From Candidatus Nanohaloarchaea archaeon (lineage in GTDB: Archaea; Nanohalarchaeota; Nanosalinia; Nanosalinales; Nanosalinaceae), in NCBI GenBank assembly GCA_013343275.1, contig CP046106.1, forward strand, positions 62,001 to 126,000: DNA of 64,000 nt. The letters run 5' to 3'. A program made the position numbers and the translations under genes. Of the stretch, positions 14,158 through 23,381 are shown one piece after another (position 1 is the first letter of the stretch; every line of letters starts with the position of its first letter). Below the pieces are notes generated by a model that had not been told where the DNA came from, ran no database searches, and saw nothing but the letters and a program-made list of their open reading frames with translations.

Positions 14158-15015
14158 TTACTGGTTGACTGCCCGCCAGATTTCCAGAAGTGACTCAAAT
14201 ACATCGTCGTTTGTAGAGACCTGTACGTAACGTGCTCCGTGTTTGTTCGCTATTTCCTCTATCTTTGAGGTATGTTCTTTCAGTTCTTCCTGGTACTGGT
14301 TCTTCGTTCTTTTGGACAGATAAGTTCTGAGCTTTGACTCTGATTCCGGGTCTTTCAGTATTGTGTCTCCCTCGAAACTTGGGTCAAGTTCCTCGGAGTC
14401 AAGTACATTTACTAGGACCACATCGGTATCTCTTAGGCTCTCTATACCTGACTCTATCTCCTCTGTATCTGTCAGGAAATCCGAGATGATGACTACCGCT
14501 GACTTGTTCTTGATTCTGCTGCCGTACTCTGTCAGGCATTTCTCGATCATGCTCTCAGGTGTTTTTCTCAACTCGTTCAATGTCTCAACAATATGAGGTG
14601 TATTGCTGTTTCTCCGACCTGAGGAAATATCGGTAAGAGTCTCTGAGAAAACCGAGAAGCGAAAACGATCGTTAGTGTTCATAGCCATATCGGCCACGGC
14701 AATCCCCAGCTTACCTCCGTAATCGTATTTTGTAGGTTCTCCATAATCCATTGAGCTGCTTCTGTCAAGGAGGATGTGGATTGTAAGATTCTTTTCCTCC
14801 TCGAAACGCTTTACAAAGTAGTCTTTGGTTCTTGCATAGGCCTTCCAGTCTATCTTCCGGATATCGTCGCCGGGAGCGTACTGCTTGTGGTCCTTGAAAA
14901 TCATTCCCTGGCCTGTGAAGCTGCTGGACTGCTCTCCCTGACTTCTTTCCTCTGAGTGCTTATCCAGAGCTAGCTGGAAGTTCTGCAGCTCGTCAAGGAA
15001 CTCTATGTCTATCAT
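14158..15015 (-). CDS. DUF58 protein with von Willebrand factor A domain
   Basis: The N-terminal DUF58 signature is YAPGDDIRKIDWKAYART (about 46-63). It is followed by a VWA domain whose MIDAS motif D-x-S-x-S is intact at 84-88 (DRSSS). DUF58/VWA proteins pair with MoxR AAA+ ATPases to help assemble or load metal into partner proteins; the partner here is unknown. The start overlaps the moxR stop by 4 nt. Length 285 is normal for the family. Confidence 0.9.
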   Translation of the reverse strand: MIDIEFLDELQNFQLALDKHSEERSQGEQSSSFTGQGMIFKDHKQYAPGDDIRKIDWKAYARTKDYFVKRFEEEKNLTIHILLDRSSSMDYGEPTKYDYGGKLGIAVADMAMNTNDRFRFSVFSETLTDISSGRRNSNTPHIVETLNELRKTPESMIEKCLTEYGSRIKNKSAVVIISDFLTDTEEIESGIESLRDTDVVLVNVLDSEELDPSFEGDTILKDPESESKLRTYLSKRTKNQYQEELKEHTSKIEEIANKHGARYVQVSTNDDVFESLLEIWRAVNQ

Positions 15016-15977
15016 ACCGAGTGCACTATTTCCTCTACAACCTTATCTTCGTCTTTTCCTTTCTTCTCCGCCTGGAAGCTCAGGCCTATACGATGCCGTA
15101 GAACAGGCTTTGCAACATGGTTTATATCAGAGGCAGAGACATGGTTCCGCCCTTTAATCAGTGCACGACCTTTAGCCGCCAGCACAATATTCATAGAGGC
15201 TCTTGGTGAGGCACCGTAGTCCAAATCGTCGTGATCTCTCGTTGATGTGACTATATCGATCGCTCTCTCCTTGATATCGTCGGCGATCGGAACCTGACGG
15301 GTAAACTTCTGAAGCCTTACTACTGAAGGCTTGGAGATCACCTCCTTCAGGTCAGGCTCGTAATTTAGCTCAGATGTAAATCTCTCAACGATCTCCTGCT
15401 CCTCATCTTTCTCAGGGTATTCAAGCTCCAGTTTCATCATGAAACGATCTCTCTGGGCCTCAGGTAATGGGTATGTTCCTTCCTGGTCGATAGGGTTCTG
15501 CGTAGCCATCACGAAGAAAGGACTGTCCAGTTCGTAGCTCTGATTACCTACTGTTACCTGTTTCTCCTGCATAGCTTCCAGCAGTGCGGACTGGGTCTTC
15601 GGTGTGGCTCTGTTGATCTCGTCCGCCAGCACCATGTTTGAGAAGATAGGGCCTCTCTGGAAAATGAAGTCGGTCTCACCGGATGACTCATCTATAATAT
15701 GCGTACCGGTAATGTCAGAAGGCATGAGGTCTGGAGTATTCTGTATACGGGAGAAATCCAGACCCATAACTTCTGAAAGAGTCTGTATCATTTTTGTCTT
15801 ACCCATGCCGGGATTAGATTCAAGCAGAACATTTCCGTCGCAAAGTACCGATATCAGAACGTTCTCTATTATTTCTTCCTGGCCTACAATTACTTTGCCG
15901 ACCTCTTCTTTGATTTCAGTCAGTTTCTCCGAGGCTTTGTCGTACTTTCCTGCTTCATCCAGGTTCGATATCTGCAT
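15012..15977 (-). CDS. MoxR-family AAA+ ATPase
   Basis: Chaperone-type ATPase. Walker A at 53-62 (ESNPGMGKTK), Walker B near 113-118 (VLADEI) followed by NRATPKTQSALLEAMQE, and sensor region FFVMATQNP. The C-terminal lid ends with the family-typical arginine-containing segment DYGASPRASMNIVLAAKGRA. The first 25 residues are helical. It is paired with the overlapping DUF58 gene, the usual MoxR partner, and preceded by two membrane-protein genes on the same strand, suggesting envelope-associated work. Confidence 0.93.
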   Translation of the reverse strand: MQISNLDEAGKYDKASEKLTEIKEEVGKVIVGQEEIIENVLISVLCDGNVLLESNPGMGKTKMIQTLSEVMGLDFSRIQNTPDLMPSDITGTHIIDESSGETDFIFQRGPIFSNMVLADEINRATPKTQSALLEAMQEKQVTVGNQSYELDSPFFVMATQNPIDQEGTYPLPEAQRDRFMMKLELEYPEKDEEQEIVERFTSELNYEPDLKEVISKPSVVRLQKFTRQVPIADDIKERAIDIVTSTRDHDDLDYGASPRASMNIVLAAKGRALIKGRNHVSASDINHVAKPVLRHRIGLSFQAEKKGKDEDKVVEEIVHSV

Positions 15978-16022
15978 AGATAACTACTAAATCCCGAGCT
16001 ATTTAAATTTCCGAGAAACCAT

Positions 16023-16766
16023 CTACTCGAACTCTTTGATAGCTATACTGTACTCTCTTGCAAGTTCAAGGCTGTCATCAAGGCCTTCGGTAGATGATTC
16101 GTAAGCGATATTTTCTCTAGATGAGTAAGGCCTTATCTCAGGCTCTGAACTATCGCCTTCGCCTTTCAGCTCGAAGCTGATATTGGCCGCAGGATAACTT
16201 GTGTTTATATCACGTATCTCGATCCGGGAAGAGTTCCCCAGCGTAAAGTTACCGCCGGTACTGCTTCCCTGTCCGCCCAGGTTTGAGAAAATGTTTCGGG
16301 TATCGTTCTGGAGATTGATGTCTGCCACTCCCGAAAGGATAGTGAGAAGACAAAGCCCTCCTACTGCCAGGATCTTCTGTATAATAGTTCTGCTGGGGAT
16401 AATGCTTTCCGAAGTAACTGAACGGGCTCTATCCATTACGTCATCGAATAATGCCTGAGAAGCCACGTTCCGCTGATTAAGGTTGTCTCTCGCTGTTCTG
16501 AGCACCTCTCTCAGCTCAGGGTTCTTCTCCTCGTAGATCTCCAGCCGGTAGTTCTGACTCCTCCAGTAAAGATCAACTGCACCAACCAGGAAACTGAGGC
16601 CTGTCAGGAGGTAGAGGTTGCTGACGTTCCTGAATATCTCCACGGAAATGAAGAACAGGGCTAGGTTAGATACCAGAAAGAAGAGAATTGCATCTAGACA
16701 GGCCTGGATAACATTTACCTTGATGAATTCTCTCTTCAACTGTTTCAGTAGTTTCTCAATTCTCAT
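16023..16766 (-). CDS. Membrane protein upstream of MoxR-DUF58
   Basis: 247 residues. Two closely spaced hydrophobic helices (about 20-45 and 50-68), an amphipathic stretch, a third helix (about 128-147), then an extracytoplasmic-looking region rich in Asn/Ser/Gly with several N-x-S/T sequons (NFTLGNSS, NISF). No enzyme motif is seen. Its start overlaps the upstream coiled-coil gene by 11 nt. Similar small membrane proteins accompany MoxR/DUF58 in haloarchaea, so it is a candidate client or anchor of that ATPase system; this is inference. Confidence 0.72.
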   Translation of the reverse strand: MRIEKLLKQLKREFIKVNVIQACLDAILFFLVSNLALFFISVEIFRNVSNLYLLTGLSFLVGAVDLYWRSQNYRLEIYEEKNPELREVLRTARDNLNQRNVASQALFDDVMDRARSVTSESIIPSRTIIQKILAVGGLCLLTILSGVADINLQNDTRNIFSNLGGQGSSTGGNFTLGNSSRIEIRDINTSYPAANISFELKGEGDSSEPEIRPYSSRENIAYESSTEGLDDSLELAREYSIAIKEFE

Positions 16767-17241
16767 TGAAATCGTAGCTGTCGCATTTGTCCTGACTGCT
16801 TTGCGTTAGGTTGTTGCTGTCGTTTTCACAGATACTTTCTAGATCGATTCGCAACATTTCGGTTCTGTTCCTCAAGTCAGAAACAGTCTGGTTGAGGTTC
16901 TCAACTTCGGTTTGGAGATCATCTACCTTTGTTCTGAGGCCTCCTATAGTGTTTTCCTGCTCCTGTATGGTCTGGTTCTTATTGCTGATGATTGTTCTCA
17001 GCTGATCTGTTGTGCTGTTGAGGGTAGAAGTTCTCTCCTGTAGGTCCTGGTTTCGGCTCTGCAGGCTGTCGATTTTCTGTTCTTTATTGTTTAATTCCTG
17101 TTTTAGCTCTTTCTTGCTTGATACCAGGTTGTTGAGCTGGTCCTGGTACACTACGGATGTTCCTGCGAGAAGAGCCAGTGTTAGAACGGTTGATATCAGT
17201 AGTATAGGGTTAAGCCGTCTCTTTAGTAGCGGTGTCTCCAT
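16756..17241 (-). CDS. Membrane-anchored coiled-coil protein
   Basis: 161 residues: a short basic N terminus, one membrane helix (about 12-32), then a long Gln/Asn/Glu/Leu heptad-rich coiled coil (about 35-135) with many N-x-S/T sequons (NSTT, NQTI, NQTV, NRTE), consistent with the coiled coil lying outside the cell and being glycosylated. The C terminus holds two Cys residues. It is the first gene of the operon with the next membrane protein, MoxR and DUF58. The function is unknown. Confidence 0.72.
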   Translation of the reverse strand: METPLLKRRLNPILLISTVLTLALLAGTSVVYQDQLNNLVSSKKELKQELNNKEQKIDSLQSRNQDLQERTSTLNSTTDQLRTIISNKNQTIQEQENTIGGLRTKVDDLQTEVENLNQTVSDLRNRTEMLRIDLESICENDSNNLTQSSQDKCDSYDFNEN

Positions 17242-17307: not shown

Positions 17308-17318
17308 TTTTAAGTAGA
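17308..17318 (+). promoter_or_regulatory. TATA box, leaderless GTG-start operon
   Basis: ATTTTAAGTAG lies 22-32 nt before the GTG at 17340. No ribosome site precedes the GTG, so the two-gene operon is probably read from a leaderless message. Confidence 0.5.
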
Positions 17319-17339: not shown

Positions 17340-18935
17340 GTGAGCCACGAAAACGGAGATGAAAAACCCAAGTTCGGCCATACCTTTGAGGTTCCCGGCA
17401 GTTCTCCTGTAGGAGAGGAAATCAGGAATGGTGAGATCACCACTCTGGATGATGTTCGGGACGCAAGGGATGGGTCCGACTTTCTGCGAGAGATCATGGG
17501 AGATCATCAGCACAAGCTGAAGGTCTCCTCGGGAAGCAGCGGAACGGCCTATGGGATAATAATGGGTGCGCCGGACGCTTTCGATGACATGGGTTACACA
17601 GTGAATAAGACTGAGGAAAAAGTCTTTATCTCTCCTCAGAACCAGCTGCATCAGTCTTTCCGGCAGAGAAGAAAGGAGGCCGAGCAGAATATACAGGAGC
17701 AGATGCAGAGCATAGGCCGGCTTCGGAAGGAGAAACATATGCTTGAACATGATATTAGAAAGCTGAGATCCAGGGTAGAGGCTATCAAGGCCAAGGATGA
17801 GACACAGCTGAAATCTGATTTTATCGAACTGGTTGATGGGGCCAACGCTGGTTCCCAGCAGGGTGGTGAGGCCGCTATGAAGACGTTGCAGGAGAGAAAT
17901 ATCTATCCTTCTATCGTAGCTGATTTCCAGGAGATGGAGTCGATAGAGGATCTTGAAGAAGGCAACAAGCTTGGTGATCTACCTGCGAATGAGAAAGCTG
18001 TTCTGAAGAAGAAGTACAAGATGTACGAGGACTGGAAGGATCTCTACGGAAGCGAGGTCCAGAAGAGGTTGCAGGAGCTTAAAGGAGAGCTTAACCGTGT
18101 TGAAAGAGCTATTGAGGAGACACAGGAATGGCTGCAGCCATACGTACAGGACATGGTGATGATAGACCAGAAAGAGCAGAGCGACTACTACGAAGAAATG
18201 ACCAAATACTACACCATCGGAGGATACGCCTCTATGGAGAAGAACCTGGAGTTCATCTGTGCAAGAGGCCTGAAAAGCGAGGAAGGACAGCCTATCGTCA
18301 CCGACGATGATGACGAAATAACACACTACCAGATAGTTTACATCCACGCAGTACACGTTAACCTTGCTGGAGGAGATCAGCCTCAGCAGAACGCTGCAGG
18401 CCCAGCAACTGCAGTAGTATTCTTCTTCCCCGCAATCGTTGACAAGCATATCTATGAGGGAATATTCAAGGAGAAGATCGAGAAGATGGATAACAGGTTT
18501 GAAAGCCTGATGGATGACTACACAGGCAACTTCTCCTCTGAGAAAGGTGAGAAACTGAAGAAGGCAAGAGAGGACGAAGGAATGCGGGTTAGAGAGCTCC
18601 GTCAGGCAATAGAAGATGAGATAGAGGGAGATGTACCGCTGGAGGTATCCTCACAGATAAGAAGGATCGAAGACGGCCTTGACGACATCAGTACTCTGAA
18701 GAAAGAGTATGTAGAGGCCATCGATGAGATACTTGATGAAGATTTCTCCGAGGAAGCGGAAAGCAGTGGCCCTGACTTCTACGAGGGGGTTGAGCTTAAA
18801 TTAAGAAAATTCCTGGGGGAAACAGATCGCTATGTCATTGATGCCGGTGCTGCACTGGGAGAACTGCAGGGCCAGATCACTAACTCTTTCTACTACGACT
18901 TCAAAATCGGAAACGGCTTGAACACGATGAAATAG
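17340..18935 (+). CDS. Unrecognised 531-residue coiled-coil protein, partner of the 898-residue protein
   Basis: I do not recognise a family. Residues 1-60 look disordered. A region around 60-100 contains SSGSSGTAYGIIMGAPD. Long Glu/Lys/Arg-rich coiled coils occur at about 105-155, 235-275 and 400-470. Between them is a compact beta-rich segment near 290-380 with hydrophobic strands (QIVYIHAVHVNLAGG and ATAVVFFFPAIVD). There is no signal peptide or clear membrane helix. The start is GTG at 17340, since the overlapping ATG one frame away is followed at once by a stop. The stop is 3 nt before the 898-residue gene. The pair probably forms a complex; the role is open. Confidence 0.75.
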   Translation: MSHENGDEKPKFGHTFEVPGSSPVGEEIRNGEITTLDDVRDARDGSDFLREIMGDHQHKLKVSSGSSGTAYGIIMGAPDAFDDMGYTVNKTEEKVFISPQNQLHQSFRQRRKEAEQNIQEQMQSIGRLRKEKHMLEHDIRKLRSRVEAIKAKDETQLKSDFIELVDGANAGSQQGGEAAMKTLQERNIYPSIVADFQEMESIEDLEEGNKLGDLPANEKAVLKKKYKMYEDWKDLYGSEVQKRLQELKGELNRVERAIEETQEWLQPYVQDMVMIDQKEQSDYYEEMTKYYTIGGYASMEKNLEFICARGLKSEEGQPIVTDDDDEITHYQIVYIHAVHVNLAGGDQPQQNAAGPATAVVFFFPAIVDKHIYEGIFKEKIEKMDNRFESLMDDYTGNFSSEKGEKLKKAREDEGMRVRELRQAIEDEIEGDVPLEVSSQIRRIEDGLDDISTLKKEYVEAIDEILDEDFSEEAESSGPDFYEGVELKLRKFLGETDRYVIDAGAALGELQGQITNSFYYDFKIGNGLNTMK

Positions 18936-18938
18936 AAA

Positions 18939-21635
18939 ATGAGCTTTATCATAGATGCAGTTAAGAGAAACCTGGGGTCTGAAAGCAGCGATGAGGGAGG
19001 AGGCTTTCCGGATCTGAACTATATGATCGGTAACTCCTCTGCGATGGATAGAGGAGAGGTTCCAACGCCACTCGACCAGAGAATAGGTTATGCGGCCCAG
19101 ATAGGTGGAAGTGTAATGGAGCTCCAGATAACCAACCCCTCCACGTTTACTCTGGAGAGGGATAAGATGATCTCCACAATCGACCAGCTGGGGATCGATG
19201 TAACACTCCACAGCGACATGAATGCTGGATACGCTTCACCCCAGAAATCGGGGCAGCAAGGCTATGGATACGATACTGTTGAAGACTACTTCACTGAGTA
19301 CCTGCAGGAGCTGGCTCTGTTCAAGAGAGAAGTCGAAAAGAGAGGAGAGAATGGCCCGCTTTTCAACATTGGTAGAATCAATCCGCATATCTCCACTACT
19401 CCACTACCTCCTCTAGAGGAGAGAATGGAGACAGATGTAGGTGTAGATCCTTTCGGTTTCACGATAAATAACTATGATGAAAACGCCCGGAAGCAGAGAA
19501 ACTACGCCAAGCAGAATATCTACAAGAATCCGGATTTCCTCCGTAAACTGTACTACACGCTTTTCCTCGAGACAGCTAACTATCCTTTCCAGAACTATCA
19601 GACCTTCGCCTCCTACTCGAACCAGTTCGATGAAGAATGGCTGGAGGCGCAACATGAAGCAGCCTGGAGGCTTTTCCAGGAAGAAGCACAATCTGTCGAA
19701 GATAAGCTAGCTGCAGTTATGACAACCCGACAGAGAGATCAAGGGATTGGACGTAAATGGCTGGAAATACTTGATAGTGAGATAGAGTTAGATTACGGGT
19801 TCCCTCGGTTTGAAATTGATATAGAAACCGATGATGATGGTAACTTCGAAGCATATAATGGTGTTGAAAAGGACTCTATTGACGACCTCAAAATGGTTCT
19901 TGGAATTTTATCCGGCAATCCAAGAGACACACAGGATCTTCGCCAAATGGACAGTATGCTTTATAAAGTAGATAATATACAACAAGAGAGGTTTCACAAG
20001 ACAGGAGACGAATTGCCTGACGATGCTCCTGATGGGCTAATAGATCAGGTAAATAATGATATAAGCTCGAAAGTAGATGAGGGAAGGCTTATTGGAAGTA
20101 TAAAAAATGGCGTTAAAGAGGCCTTGAATAATCTCTGGCATGTTGAGGATGCTGATAGCCCTGATGAGCAGAATATTTCTCAGGATGCGAAATGGAATGC
20201 ATTGCAGAGCGCATTAGAAGTTCAGCAGATAAGACTTCTTGAAGTTGCGTACGATATCGGTAAGAAGAACCACGATATTGAGGAGAAAGCTGCTAGAGTG
20301 TTCAGTGGCGCAGATAACTATGAGATGTTCGACTCCAGCGATAGAGAGGATATCGAAGATGAAGAGGCCATGCATGAGGATCTTCTTGAAAGACTTCTGC
20401 AGGGCCAGCAGTTCCAGAGGGAGATGTGGAAGGAGTCAACTATTTTCTATCAGGTGATTCCAGCCTGGATGGCGGCCAGCAGCAATGACTCTCACGAATA
20501 CCATGAAGGATGGGAGGCCCCTGAGTTCATATGGGAGGTTCTCGTTGAGAAATGGAATGATAAAGACGGTGTCGAGATTGACTTGGAGGATCCCCGTAAC
20601 GGTATGGAGGGGACTGACAGGTATATGGATTTACTGGAGAAGAGCGATGAGTTCCAGATGGATGTTGCTGCGGCCGTGGGAGCATGCTATGCCTGGGGGC
20701 ACTTCACCCAGCACAGGAGCCAGTTCAACCTGAGAAACAGGGATTTCGGCCTGGAAGATGACGAGGCTGAAGAGGTTGAGCGAGAGGGCTGGACATGGAT
20801 CGACTGGATGAACAGGTTCGGTATAGGGGTTAACCTTGAGACAATGGCCGGTAGCCCTCAGCAGAAGTTCAAGGTCTGGAGGCCTAAAGATATCTCGGTA
20901 GCAGCCCACGCAATAAACATGACTGCAAGAAACAAGCTTGATGAAGAAGGAGAGCTGGGAGGGAAGAGCGAGATACATCCAGAGCTTGACGGCTGTCCAG
21001 CAAAGTTCACTATAGATATGGAGCACGTGGCCTCTCTGGGAGCGCCTCCGTGGGAGGAGATGGACCTATTTATAGAGCAGGAGGAAGAGCTGGCGGGCGA
21101 CTGGCCTGAACTCGATATAGATTCTGACAAGCCTATTGCCAAGATACTGCGCCAGTACCACTTAATGGATCCTGGAGTTGAGTCGGATAGAGGAACACAT
21201 CACGGAGCTTTCAAGAGAGGAAATACTCAGATATATGAATGGCTGTATAAACTGGTGGAGAAAGGATTTGCCCGTAACGAGAACGAGCCAGCTACACTAC
21301 TTTTCGAACTTGCTGAGCACAAAGGAGAGTCCAGCTTTATGATGAGAATATCCATGGATATGATTGAAGTAGGTGTAACACCTGACGAGCTTGATCCAAG
21401 CAATGTGGATCCGGGAGAGGACTACCAGAGTGAGAAAGAGGCCCTTATCGCCAGATTCTTCGGAATGGATCAATCCAGCTACGACAGGGAATGGGCGAAG
21501 ATAGAGGAACATGCATTTGACCCTCTGGAAGGCCTTCTGGAGGCAGATGAATTTAATGAGACGCATCAGGGCTCTGCTGCACTGGAGCAGGGTAATAAAA
21601 GGTATAACGAGTGGAAACCTGAGGAGTATAAGTAG
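18939..21635 (+). CDS. Unrecognised 898-residue protein, possibly a TIM barrel split by a large helical insertion
   Basis: The two ends resemble a xylose-isomerase/endonuclease-IV-like TIM barrel: near the N terminus GGSVMELQITNPSTF (about 56-70), VTLHSDM (about 87-93) and FNIGRINPHIS (about 140-150); near the C terminus FTIDMEHVA (about 689-697), RQYHLMDPG (about 736-744), THHGAF and LLFELAEHKG (about 786-795). The His and Glu residues recur where metal ligands sit in that fold. About 500 helical, acidic residues separate the halves. Bases 19740-20250 are more AT-rich than the flanks. The gene follows the 531-residue gene by 3 nt. The fold suggestion is by eye; the substrate is unknown. Confidence 0.72.
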   Translation: MSFIIDAVKRNLGSESSDEGGGFPDLNYMIGNSSAMDRGEVPTPLDQRIGYAAQIGGSVMELQITNPSTFTLERDKMISTIDQLGIDVTLHSDMNAGYASPQKSGQQGYGYDTVEDYFTEYLQELALFKREVEKRGENGPLFNIGRINPHISTTPLPPLEERMETDVGVDPFGFTINNYDENARKQRNYAKQNIYKNPDFLRKLYYTLFLETANYPFQNYQTFASYSNQFDEEWLEAQHEAAWRLFQEEAQSVEDKLAAVMTTRQRDQGIGRKWLEILDSEIELDYGFPRFEIDIETDDDGNFEAYNGVEKDSIDDLKMVLGILSGNPRDTQDLRQMDSMLYKVDNIQQERFHKTGDELPDDAPDGLIDQVNNDISSKVDEGRLIGSIKNGVKEALNNLWHVEDADSPDEQNISQDAKWNALQSALEVQQIRLLEVAYDIGKKNHDIEEKAARVFSGADNYEMFDSSDREDIEDEEAMHEDLLERLLQGQQFQREMWKESTIFYQVIPAWMAASSNDSHEYHEGWEAPEFIWEVLVEKWNDKDGVEIDLEDPRNGMEGTDRYMDLLEKSDEFQMDVAAAVGACYAWGHFTQHRSQFNLRNRDFGLEDDEAEEVEREGWTWIDWMNRFGIGVNLETMAGSPQQKFKVWRPKDISVAAHAINMTARNKLDEEGELGGKSEIHPELDGCPAKFTIDMEHVASLGAPPWEEMDLFIEQEEELAGDWPELDIDSDKPIAKILRQYHLMDPGVESDRGTHHGAFKRGNTQIYEWLYKLVEKGFARNENEPATLLFELAEHKGESSFMMRISMDMIEVGVTPDELDPSNVDPGEDYQSEKEALIARFFGMDQSSYDREWAKIEEHAFDPLEGLLEADEFNETHQGSAALEQGNKRYNEWKPEEYK

Positions 21636-21639
21636 AACT

Positions 21640-22062
21640 TTAATTTCGATAGAATCCTTTAACCTTGTCTGGTGAGAAATCTGAAAAATCTTCTAGGTAT
21701 TCTTTAGGCCCAAAAGCAACAGTTTCTTCGCCGCTACGGGAGTTCGCAAGAATATCTGATATCTGATAGCTTGAACCAGGATATTCGAAGAAGAATACTG
21801 ATTCATTGTGTATTTTATCGGATTCTGCAACGTCTTCCTGGTACTCTTCCGATGCAAAAATTCTTGCATTGTTATTACTGGAGTAGTTCTTGAAAACAGT
21901 TTCTTCAAAATCTGCAAAGGACTTTCTGTTGTAGTCGTTATTGCCTCCCATCAGGGCAATGTTGTCGGTGGAATCAGTCTTTCTCAGAAATTTGAGCGCA
22001 CCTGGAAGTGTCTGGAGTTTCTCGCTTCCTTCCAGCAACTCATCCCAGACTTTGTTTACCAT
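21640..22062 (-). CDS. Hypothetical protein, about 140 residues
   Basis: Unrecognised. The frame is open to 22128, but ATG at 22062 (MVNKVWDELLEG) is preferred because a TATA-like box at 22086-22096 is 25-34 nt upstream, giving a leaderless message. The protein has an ALKFLRKTDSTDNIALMGGNNDYN segment that looks like a strand-loop-helix, and mixed acidic/aromatic content. It lacks membrane helices. It converges on the 898-residue gene (4 nt gap) and diverges from the nucleotidyltransferase gene. Confidence 0.65.
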   Translation of the reverse strand: MVNKVWDELLEGSEKLQTLPGALKFLRKTDSTDNIALMGGNNDYNRKSFADFEETVFKNYSSNNNARIFASEEYQEDVAESDKIHNESVFFFEYPGSSYQISDILANSRSGEETVAFGPKEYLEDFSDFSPDKVKGFYRN

Positions 22063-22084
22063 AAAGTAACAAATTATTGCAAAA

Positions 22085-22096
22085 GTTTTTAAGTTT
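22085..22096. promoter_or_regulatory. Shared TATA-like element for divergent genes
   Basis: GTTTTTAAGTTT reads as a TATA-like box in both directions. It sits 23-34 nt from the minus-strand ATG at 22062 and 32-43 nt from the plus-strand ATG at 22128. Confidence 0.45.
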
Positions 22097-22127
22097 GTCT
22101 TGACTAAACGGTTAATGTGATTGAGCA

Positions 22128-23381
22128 ATGAGTTCTAAGGACAAGTTGAAGGAGATGAGGGAGAAATCCCAGGAGAGAAGGATTGAGGCTGTCGAAGAGT
22201 TCTCCGACAAGCTGCAGGAAAAGCTAGGAGATAAGGTCAAGGTTGTAGCTGTCTGGGGATCTGTTCCGAAAGGAGAGCATGGCTATGACTCCGATATAGA
22301 TACTCTTGTCATTTTAGACGATACTAAGTTGAAGAAAGACGTTCCTGACGATGCAAAGAAGAAGATCAGGAAGAAAGTTACTAATCTAGCGAAGGAAACA
22401 GATGAAAGGATTACAATTCAGTACTTCCCATTCCTTACAGACTTCTGGGACTCTCTCAGAAAAGGAGAGCCTCTAGCAATCGAAGCAGTAAGAAATGGCG
22501 AACCTGTATACGACACAGGCCTGTTCATGCCTGCAAAAAGACTTCTGGAGAGAGGAAAGATCTCCGGAACTCAGGAATCTGTCAAGAAAAGGTTGAAGAT
22601 GGGTGCAGCAGGATACAAGAAGGCCGAGAAAAACTTCAAGTCCTCCATCCCTCACAAGCTGGAGCAATCGATGGCCAATGCTGGTCAGGCCCCTATCATG
22701 CTTGCCGGCAAGGCCCCTCCAGGAAAGGAGAATGTACCGGATACTCTAGAGGAGATGTTTGTGGAGCAGGGTATGCTTGAGGAAGAGTATGTTGAAAAGG
22801 CCCGTGAGATCTACGAGTTCGCAGATACTGGTGAGAAGGATCCTGAAGAGGTTACTGGTGAGGCAGTAGAAGAACATCTGGATAAGACTGATGACTTTGT
22901 CCGCAGAATGCATAAACTTGTGTCGCAGCTGGGAGCAAGGAAGAAGGTCAAGGGCATCGTCGATGACTACAAGAAGTTCCTCAAGGCCAACGTGGCAGCC
23001 CTTAAATCGCAAGGTGTCTCTCCACCGGAAGATAAGAGCGACTTGCCTGGTGTAGTAGAAGAGAACCTTGATGTCGGCGATGAGCATATTGAGATGTTCG
23101 ACCGCTGGGAGGACGTCATCGAAAAGGTCAAGGCCAAGGAACTAGATGATGTGCCAGAGAAGGAGATCTACGAGCTGAAAAGCGAGACCCGTGACTTTGT
23201 CTCAGAAGTCGGCAAGGATATCCAGAAGATGAAGGACGAGAAGAAAGACATGGGGCCGAACGTTGATACCTCCGAGATTGCGGAAGCGGCTGACACAAAA
23301 GACATGATGCCTAACCTAGAGAAAGAGGCTGAAAGAAAGGTCGAACAGGAAGAGGAAGAAGAGGAAGAGGCCGAGAAGTAG
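22128..23381 (+). CDS. Nucleotidyltransferase-domain protein with long acidic C terminus
   Basis: 417 residues. An MNT-type nucleotidyltransferase core is clear: VVAVWGSVPKGEHGYDSDIDTLVIL holds G44-S45 and D55-x-D57 (positions about 39-62). The following helical part (about 130-300) could be a HEPN-like or substrate-binding domain, but no R-x4-6-H motif stands out. The last 60 residues are Lys/Glu-rich, ending in a Glu run. It might nucleotidylate RNA or protein. MNT proteins are often antitoxins of HEPN toxins, but no toxin gene neighbours it. It is divergent from the 140-residue gene and convergent with the ATPase operon (3 nt gap). Confidence 0.78.
   Translation: MSSKDKLKEMREKSQERRIEAVEEFSDKLQEKLGDKVKVVAVWGSVPKGEHGYDSDIDTLVILDDTKLKKDVPDDAKKKIRKKVTNLAKETDERITIQYFPFLTDFWDSLRKGEPLAIEAVRNGEPVYDTGLFMPAKRLLERGKISGTQESVKKRLKMGAAGYKKAEKNFKSSIPHKLEQSMANAGQAPIMLAGKAPPGKENVPDTLEEMFVEQGMLEEEYVEKAREIYEFADTGEKDPEEVTGEAVEEHLDKTDDFVRRMHKLVSQLGARKKVKGIVDDYKKFLKANVAALKSQGVSPPEDKSDLPGVVEENLDVGDEHIEMFDRWEDVIEKVKAKELDDVPEKEIYELKSETRDFVSEVGKDIQKMKDEKKDMGPNVDTSEIAEAADTKDMMPNLEKEAERKVEQEEEEEEEAEK

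Follow-up and report, generated by a model that had tools for sequence, protein, structure and literature searches.

We analysed a stretch of 64,000 nucleotides (the window) of Candidatus Nanohaloarchaea archaeon, a tiny, symbiotic archaeon (GenBank assembly GCA_013343275.1, contig CP046106.1, positions 62,001 to 126,000 of the forward strand). Three genes of this window, here called C, B and N, are the subject of the analysis. Gene C (17340-18935, +) runs from a GTG start to a TAG stop, as read from the open reading frame (ORF), and encodes a coiled-coil protein of 531 amino acids. The ATG of gene B (18939-21635, +) lies 3 nt past this stop codon, and B encodes an 898-residue split TIM barrel of the endonuclease IV / xylose-isomerase-like superfamily. 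Gene N (22128-23381, +) encodes a protein of 417 amino acids, with a minimal nucleotidyltransferase domain (PF01909) and a C-terminal HEPN-like region. An earlier note, written from the sequence alone, had proposed a two-gene unit with a GTG start, encoding proteins of 531 and 898 residues from genes 3 nt apart. Both ORFs lie where it had placed them. The C-B pair proved to be conserved, but the conserved unit comprises at least three genes, N included. We refer to the window's phylum, the nanohaloarchaea, as phylum 1, and to further lineages with B homologues as phyla 2, 3 and 4. As no more than a guess, phylum 2 may be Aenigmatarchaeota.

In comparison with a genome of the same genus, C, B and N showed dN/dS values of 0.05 to 0.07, and hence they are real genes under purifying selection. 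C and N were 85% and 92% identical to their counterparts in that genome, each with a dN/dS of 0.05. Overall identity of B was 66%, but this value differed along the protein, from 77% in the barrel (dN/dS 0.07) to 54% in the insertion that splits it and 22% in the hypervariable residues 281-400.

Structure of the C and B proteins

The GTG start of C is backed by an alignment with homologues that begin with MSH. A T/A-rich, TATA-like box read from the sequence, TTTTAAGTA (17308-17316, +), is a candidate leaderless promoter, spanning approximately positions -32 to -24 relative to the GTG, and inspection of the sequence before the GTG revealed no visible Shine-Dalgarno-like motif. Given this box and the lack of a ribosome-binding motif, a leaderless transcript of C is plausible. 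In the predicted structure of C (pTM 0.51), residues 102-150 and 216-274 form two long helices, and a beta region spans about residues 297-368. A Foldseek search of the PDB with this model gave no convincing match, searches of Pfam and NCBIfam with the sequence gave nothing useful, and matches of the coiled coil to fibrinogen alpha and other proteins look like low-complexity noise. Residues P99, H137, D138, R140, D166, P190, D195, F196 and W232 are invariant in C homologues. Of these, H137, D138 and R140 form a cluster in the stem of the coiled coil, and D166, P190, D195 and F196 form another in the segment that lies between the helices.

B was modelled by AlphaFold2 with 13 nanohaloarchaeal sequences. 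The model (pTM 0.73) has eight strands in barrel order, of which four precede a long insertion (residues 28-34, 59-63, 87-91 and 144-148) and four follow it (residues 631-634, 688-693, 737-741 and 785-790). Residues 1-180 (18939-19478, +) contain strands 1-4, with His91 (19209-19211) and His150 (19386-19388). Residues 181-599 (19479-20735, +) form the acidic, helical insertion between strands 4 and 5, and residues 600-898 (20736-21632, +) contain strands 5-8 and a conserved C-terminal tail, with the codons of Glu634 at 20838, Asp693 at 21015, His696 at 21024, His741 at 21159, His755 at 21201 and Glu790 at 21306. The insertion after strand 4 amounts to about 480 residues and is mostly helical; Asp and Glu make up 22% of residues 181-599, versus 10% for Lys and Arg, and His588 within it is invariant across three phyla. 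The earlier note had read the two ends of B as a TIM barrel split by about 500 acidic helical residues, and had named a predicted structure lacking the barrel as evidence that would count against it. The model shows the barrel and agrees with this description.

By direct sequence search, the window's B protein matched nothing in Pfam, NCBIfam or the PDB, in line with the earlier note, which could match neither C nor B to a family that it knew. Shorter B homologues exceed the Pfam gathering cut-off of PF01261 (AP_endonuc_2), with 62, 61 and 43 bits. When the B model was compared with the PDB by Foldseek, the top matches were nearly all (beta/alpha)8 folds, including 3-epimerases of the superfamily, with probabilities up to 1.00; the E-values were all >0.05, probably because of the insertion. 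A library of viral structures returned weak matches only, with AP-endonuclease-family barrels among them. As judged from its modelled fold, B is a member of the xylose-isomerase-like TIM barrel superfamily (PF01261).

Metal-ligand positions were mapped by profile alignment with the canonical Nfo of the window's phylum and by motif order. For endonuclease IV we used the E. coli numbering of the ligands (His69, His109, Glu145, Asp179, His182, His216, Asp229, His231 and Glu261). His91, His150, Glu634 and Asp693 of B align with His69, His109, Glu145 and Asp179 of endonuclease IV, and His696, His741 and His755 with His182, His216 and His231, while Glu790 was placed at Glu261 by motif order. Each of these eight positions is kept in at least 40 of 44 diverse B sequences from four lineages. 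At the ninth position (Asp229), most sequences of phyla 1 and 2 have His and the window's B has Thr, and phylum 3 is variable. The recurring His and Glu residues that had been pointed out in the earlier note are thus real and conserved, and the conserved ligand positions argue for its suggestion of an enzyme rather than a structural pair.

B resembles endonuclease IV (Nfo; PF01261) in its TIM barrel and in the order and identity of eight of the nine trinuclear-zinc ligands. In contrast to endonuclease IV, which is a compact single domain of ~280 amino acids, the B family has 500-900 amino acids and a barrel split after strand 4; the window's B, with 898 amino acids and its long insertion, does not fit the compact ~280-residue Nfo family model. 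Further differences are the replacement of Asp229, the conserved C-terminal tail, and the coiled-coil gene C, which adjoins B in nearly all assessable loci of two phyla. For a short B homologue, the best NCBIfam model was the CbiR phosphodiesterase (NF041277; 6e-9), and deoxyribonuclease IV matched weakly (E 0.014). CbiR is cobamide-remodelling and a phosphodiesterase by name, but the short homologue stayed far under the cut-off of this model (36 vs 105 bits).

Distribution and gene order of C, B and N

Profile searches detected B in 26 of the 28 genomes of phylum 1, 141 of the 156 genomes of phylum 2 and 29 of the 34 genomes of phylum 3, and weakly in five of ten genomes of the fourth phylum. 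Among near-complete genomes, the counts were 12/12, 38/39 and 7/7 for phyla 1, 2 and 3, respectively. The set of genomes with C homologues is almost that of B. In phyla 1 and 2, C lies directly upstream of B and in the same orientation at all loci but one where the contig permits a check; at the exception, two short ORFs lie between them. The gaps between C and B were mostly about -10 to +13 nt, and some were longer. Homologues of C and B do occur as a pair; the earlier note had named homologues that are never paired as evidence that would count against it. B homologues of phylum 2 are mostly 500-780 amino acids long and their identity to the window's B goes down to about 20-25%, which implies that the C-B order survived a long divergence.

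N scores above the cut-off of PF01909, and its catalytic motif GS...DxD is preserved in every one of 31 sequences. The HEPN domain is above the cut-off in one copy of N (L130). The HEPN motif Rx4H is intact in most long N copies of phylum 2, but none of the eight nanohaloarchaeal copies that were examined has kept it, and it is lost in the window. In most loci of phyla 1 and 2, N is the first, second or third gene downstream of B; in phylum 3 and the fourth lineage, some loci have N beside or close to B. Some N copies of phylum 3 have an N-terminal RadA-like helix-hairpin-helix (5.9e-5), a nucleic-acid-binding module, fused to the nucleotidyltransferase. N, the tRNA methyltransferase Trm1 and transcription factor B (TFB, assigned by sequence) recur near B in all three phyla, and the neighbourhood of B is a housekeeping context. 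The C-B(-N) gene order is conserved in two phyla.

In other archaea sampled, the B profile matched only proteins of ordinary endonuclease-IV size, about 250-400 amino acids. In a large DPANN phylum, searched without a positive control, we obtained no true B match in 146 genomes (only Nfo-size proteins of 271-297 amino acids), no C match in 97 genomes, and only short or generic nucleotidyltransferase matches to the N profile, none of them convincing; empty results of such a search are weak evidence. A DPANN-wide distribution was rejected on these grounds, and the B family is confined to a subset of the DPANN-type phyla.

Genomes of DPANN-type archaea are very small and contain few core genes that are specific to a lineage. 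Because C and B adjoin in nearly all genomes of two phyla despite an identity of ~20%, the pair must serve a function that these cells need, and the retention of adjacent C and B, usually with N behind them, in nearly all genomes of two or more deep archaeal phyla suggests a core process that has yet to be described. The C-B pair provides a testable enzyme with named catalytic residues and, for the debate on how nanohaloarchaea and their neighbours are related, a shared character.

The fold of B is known, but the libraries searched contain no such split architecture, constant partner or module. PADLOC gave no match for B, weak coiled-coil matches for C, and only generic or candidate nucleotidyltransferase (NTase) models for N. 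A literature search of titles and abstracts revealed no such module, apart from a cluster of minimal nucleotidyltransferases with HEPN (MNT-HEPN). The passages on this DPANN-specific cluster, cls.004259 (NEQ050), in Makarova et al. 2019 (PMC6393860) treat it as a priority unknown that is unusually conserved and has a housekeeping context in DPANN; these passages contain no mention of C or B. N has the same architecture as MNT-HEPN (MntA-HepT) and cls.004259, a likeness of architecture only, and differs from MNT-HEPN by the loss of the HEPN motif in nanohaloarchaea.

Proposed function and alternative explanations

We propose, with a probability of about one half, that B is a metal-dependent phosphoesterase on the coiled-coil scaffold C that takes part with N in a core nucleic-acid process. 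The conservation of its metal-ligand positions argues for an enzymatic role of B. We infer the following scheme for metal binding and phosphoesterase chemistry, for the complex and the substrate, and for the order in which the steps occur. B would bind two or three divalent metal ions and act as a phosphoesterase whose substrate is a nucleic acid or a nucleotide; this substrate may be presented or gated by the insertion of B and by C. C and B would form an obligate complex, and N might act in the same pathway by nucleotide transfer to RNA, DNA or protein. In the simplest scheme, B would process ends, after which N would transfer nucleotides. The full system may include members beyond C, B and N. 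More tentatively, C, B and N, joined in two phyla by twin proteins of ~170 amino acids (see below), could form an undescribed core nucleic-acid processing complex that is ancestral to some DPANN-type phyla, in which a coiled-coil scaffold carries a split endonuclease-IV-like enzyme that is coupled to a nucleotidyltransferase; we regard this wider reading as possible rather than probable.

Several observations weigh against the phosphoesterase proposal. The third metal site of B may be incomplete, since the Asp229 position is not kept. Scores for homology between B and endonuclease IV are weak, with an E-value of 0.05 in the PDB profile search and an hhalign probability of 76-85% that covers the first half only. 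In one family of phylum 3 (f118), B has lost the ligands. Moreover, the ligand residues of B also serve isomerases and oxidases of the superfamily. In phylum 3, C was near B in only three examined loci, on the opposite strand, and N was next to B in only four. Finally, a full-length PF01261 (Nfo-type) gene of canonical size is present elsewhere in the same genome. The idea that B replaces endonuclease IV was rejected because of this gene, and B is therefore an addition rather than a replacement.

B might instead be a metal-dependent isomerase, epimerase or dehydratase of sugars or other metabolites, with C as its scaffold and an incidental link to N. This would suit the 3-epimerases that were Foldseek's best matches in the superfamily, and the weak NCBIfam matches to IolE and hydroxypyruvate isomerase. 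However, the superfamily's epimerases retain one metal, bound by about four ligands, whereas B has kept eight endonuclease-IV-type positions, and the genes that recur beside B across phyla are N, Trm1 and TFB rather than any gene of sugar metabolism, which makes this explanation unlikely. Peptide-modifying TIM barrels of the DUF692/MNIO type share the fold and use a comparable set of His, Asp and Glu residues, and B could be an oxidative metalloenzyme of this kind. We consider this very improbable, as none of nine B homologues matched DUF692 at E<=1, and no precursor-peptide gene was noticed beside B, though no systematic search was made.

A toxin-antitoxin or antiviral module, with N as an MNT-HEPN pair in one chain and B as a nuclease effector, would account for the NTase and HEPN domains of N, for the intact Rx4H in most long phylum-2 copies, and for the PADLOC candidate NTase models that match N. 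Near-universal occurrence in three phyla is unlike that of defence genes, though, and the loss of the HEPN motif in all eight nanohaloarchaeal copies checked, the lack of a convincing defence-model match for B or C, and the housekeeping gene context further reduce this to a rather improbable explanation. Alternatively, the C-B pair might be mainly structural, as a scaffold for cell architecture or host contact in which the barrel is a fossil; the coiled coil of C, the large helical insertion of B and the ligand loss in f118 would all fit. Yet in all lineages but f118, few residues are as strongly conserved as the ligand positions, and neither a signal peptide nor a membrane segment came up on inspection. 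In nanohaloarchaea, the published loci of coiled-coil proteins (CCPs) include genes of the type IV pilus (Hamm et al. 2024; PMC11291902). Like C, the CCPs are coiled-coil proteins conserved across some DPANN phyla, but no pilus genes were seen at the C-B locus, a difference of gene context. A mainly structural pair thus seems improbable, and gene context does not support C as a pilus-locus CCP.

Neighbouring genes and divergent copies

An ORF of 162 amino acids without a family match (21640-22128, -) lies between B and N. In many nanohaloarchaea of the window's family, this place is occupied by an ORF of about 160-280 amino acids, likewise on the opposite strand, and the 162-residue ORF is probably outside the system. 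In one nanohaloarchaeal genus, the place between B and N is taken by a gene of ~640 amino acids (L082:13757-15685, L079:5841-7769), of which the L082 copy is pullulanase/alpha-amylase-like.

At 22 loci of phyla 2 and 3, proteins of ~170 amino acids are encoded near B (near the C-B pair in phylum 2), usually in tandem and in a few cases singly. These twins are paralogous, have no Pfam match and share the motifs GPNP and TEYPQDT; examples are L118:13280-14324, L154:12833-13871 and L157:5122-6130. Profile comparison did not support a relationship of the twins with C or B. The N orthologues with the RadA-like region in phylum 3 include L154:7759-9414 (-) and L156:7095-8876 (-).

Some divergent copies of B were also observed. 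The B-like protein of f118 (L170:9323-10852) has 510 amino acids and lacks the metal ligands and the C-terminal tail. In Ca. Nanosalina J07AB43 (L184:7001-8791), B has 597 amino acids and lacks the region of strand 4 and His150, owing to a deletion or an assembly error. Ca. Nanosalinarum J07AB56 has a second copy of B that is truncated and split (L089:7205-8891), possibly a decaying paralogue, and a full-length B ~33 kb away on the same contig.

Upstream of C, the window contains genes for a MoxR-like ATPase, a DUF58-like protein, a DUF7502 protein and a membrane-anchored coiled-coil protein (14158-17241, -). This cluster is divergent from C in eight nanohaloarchaeal loci.

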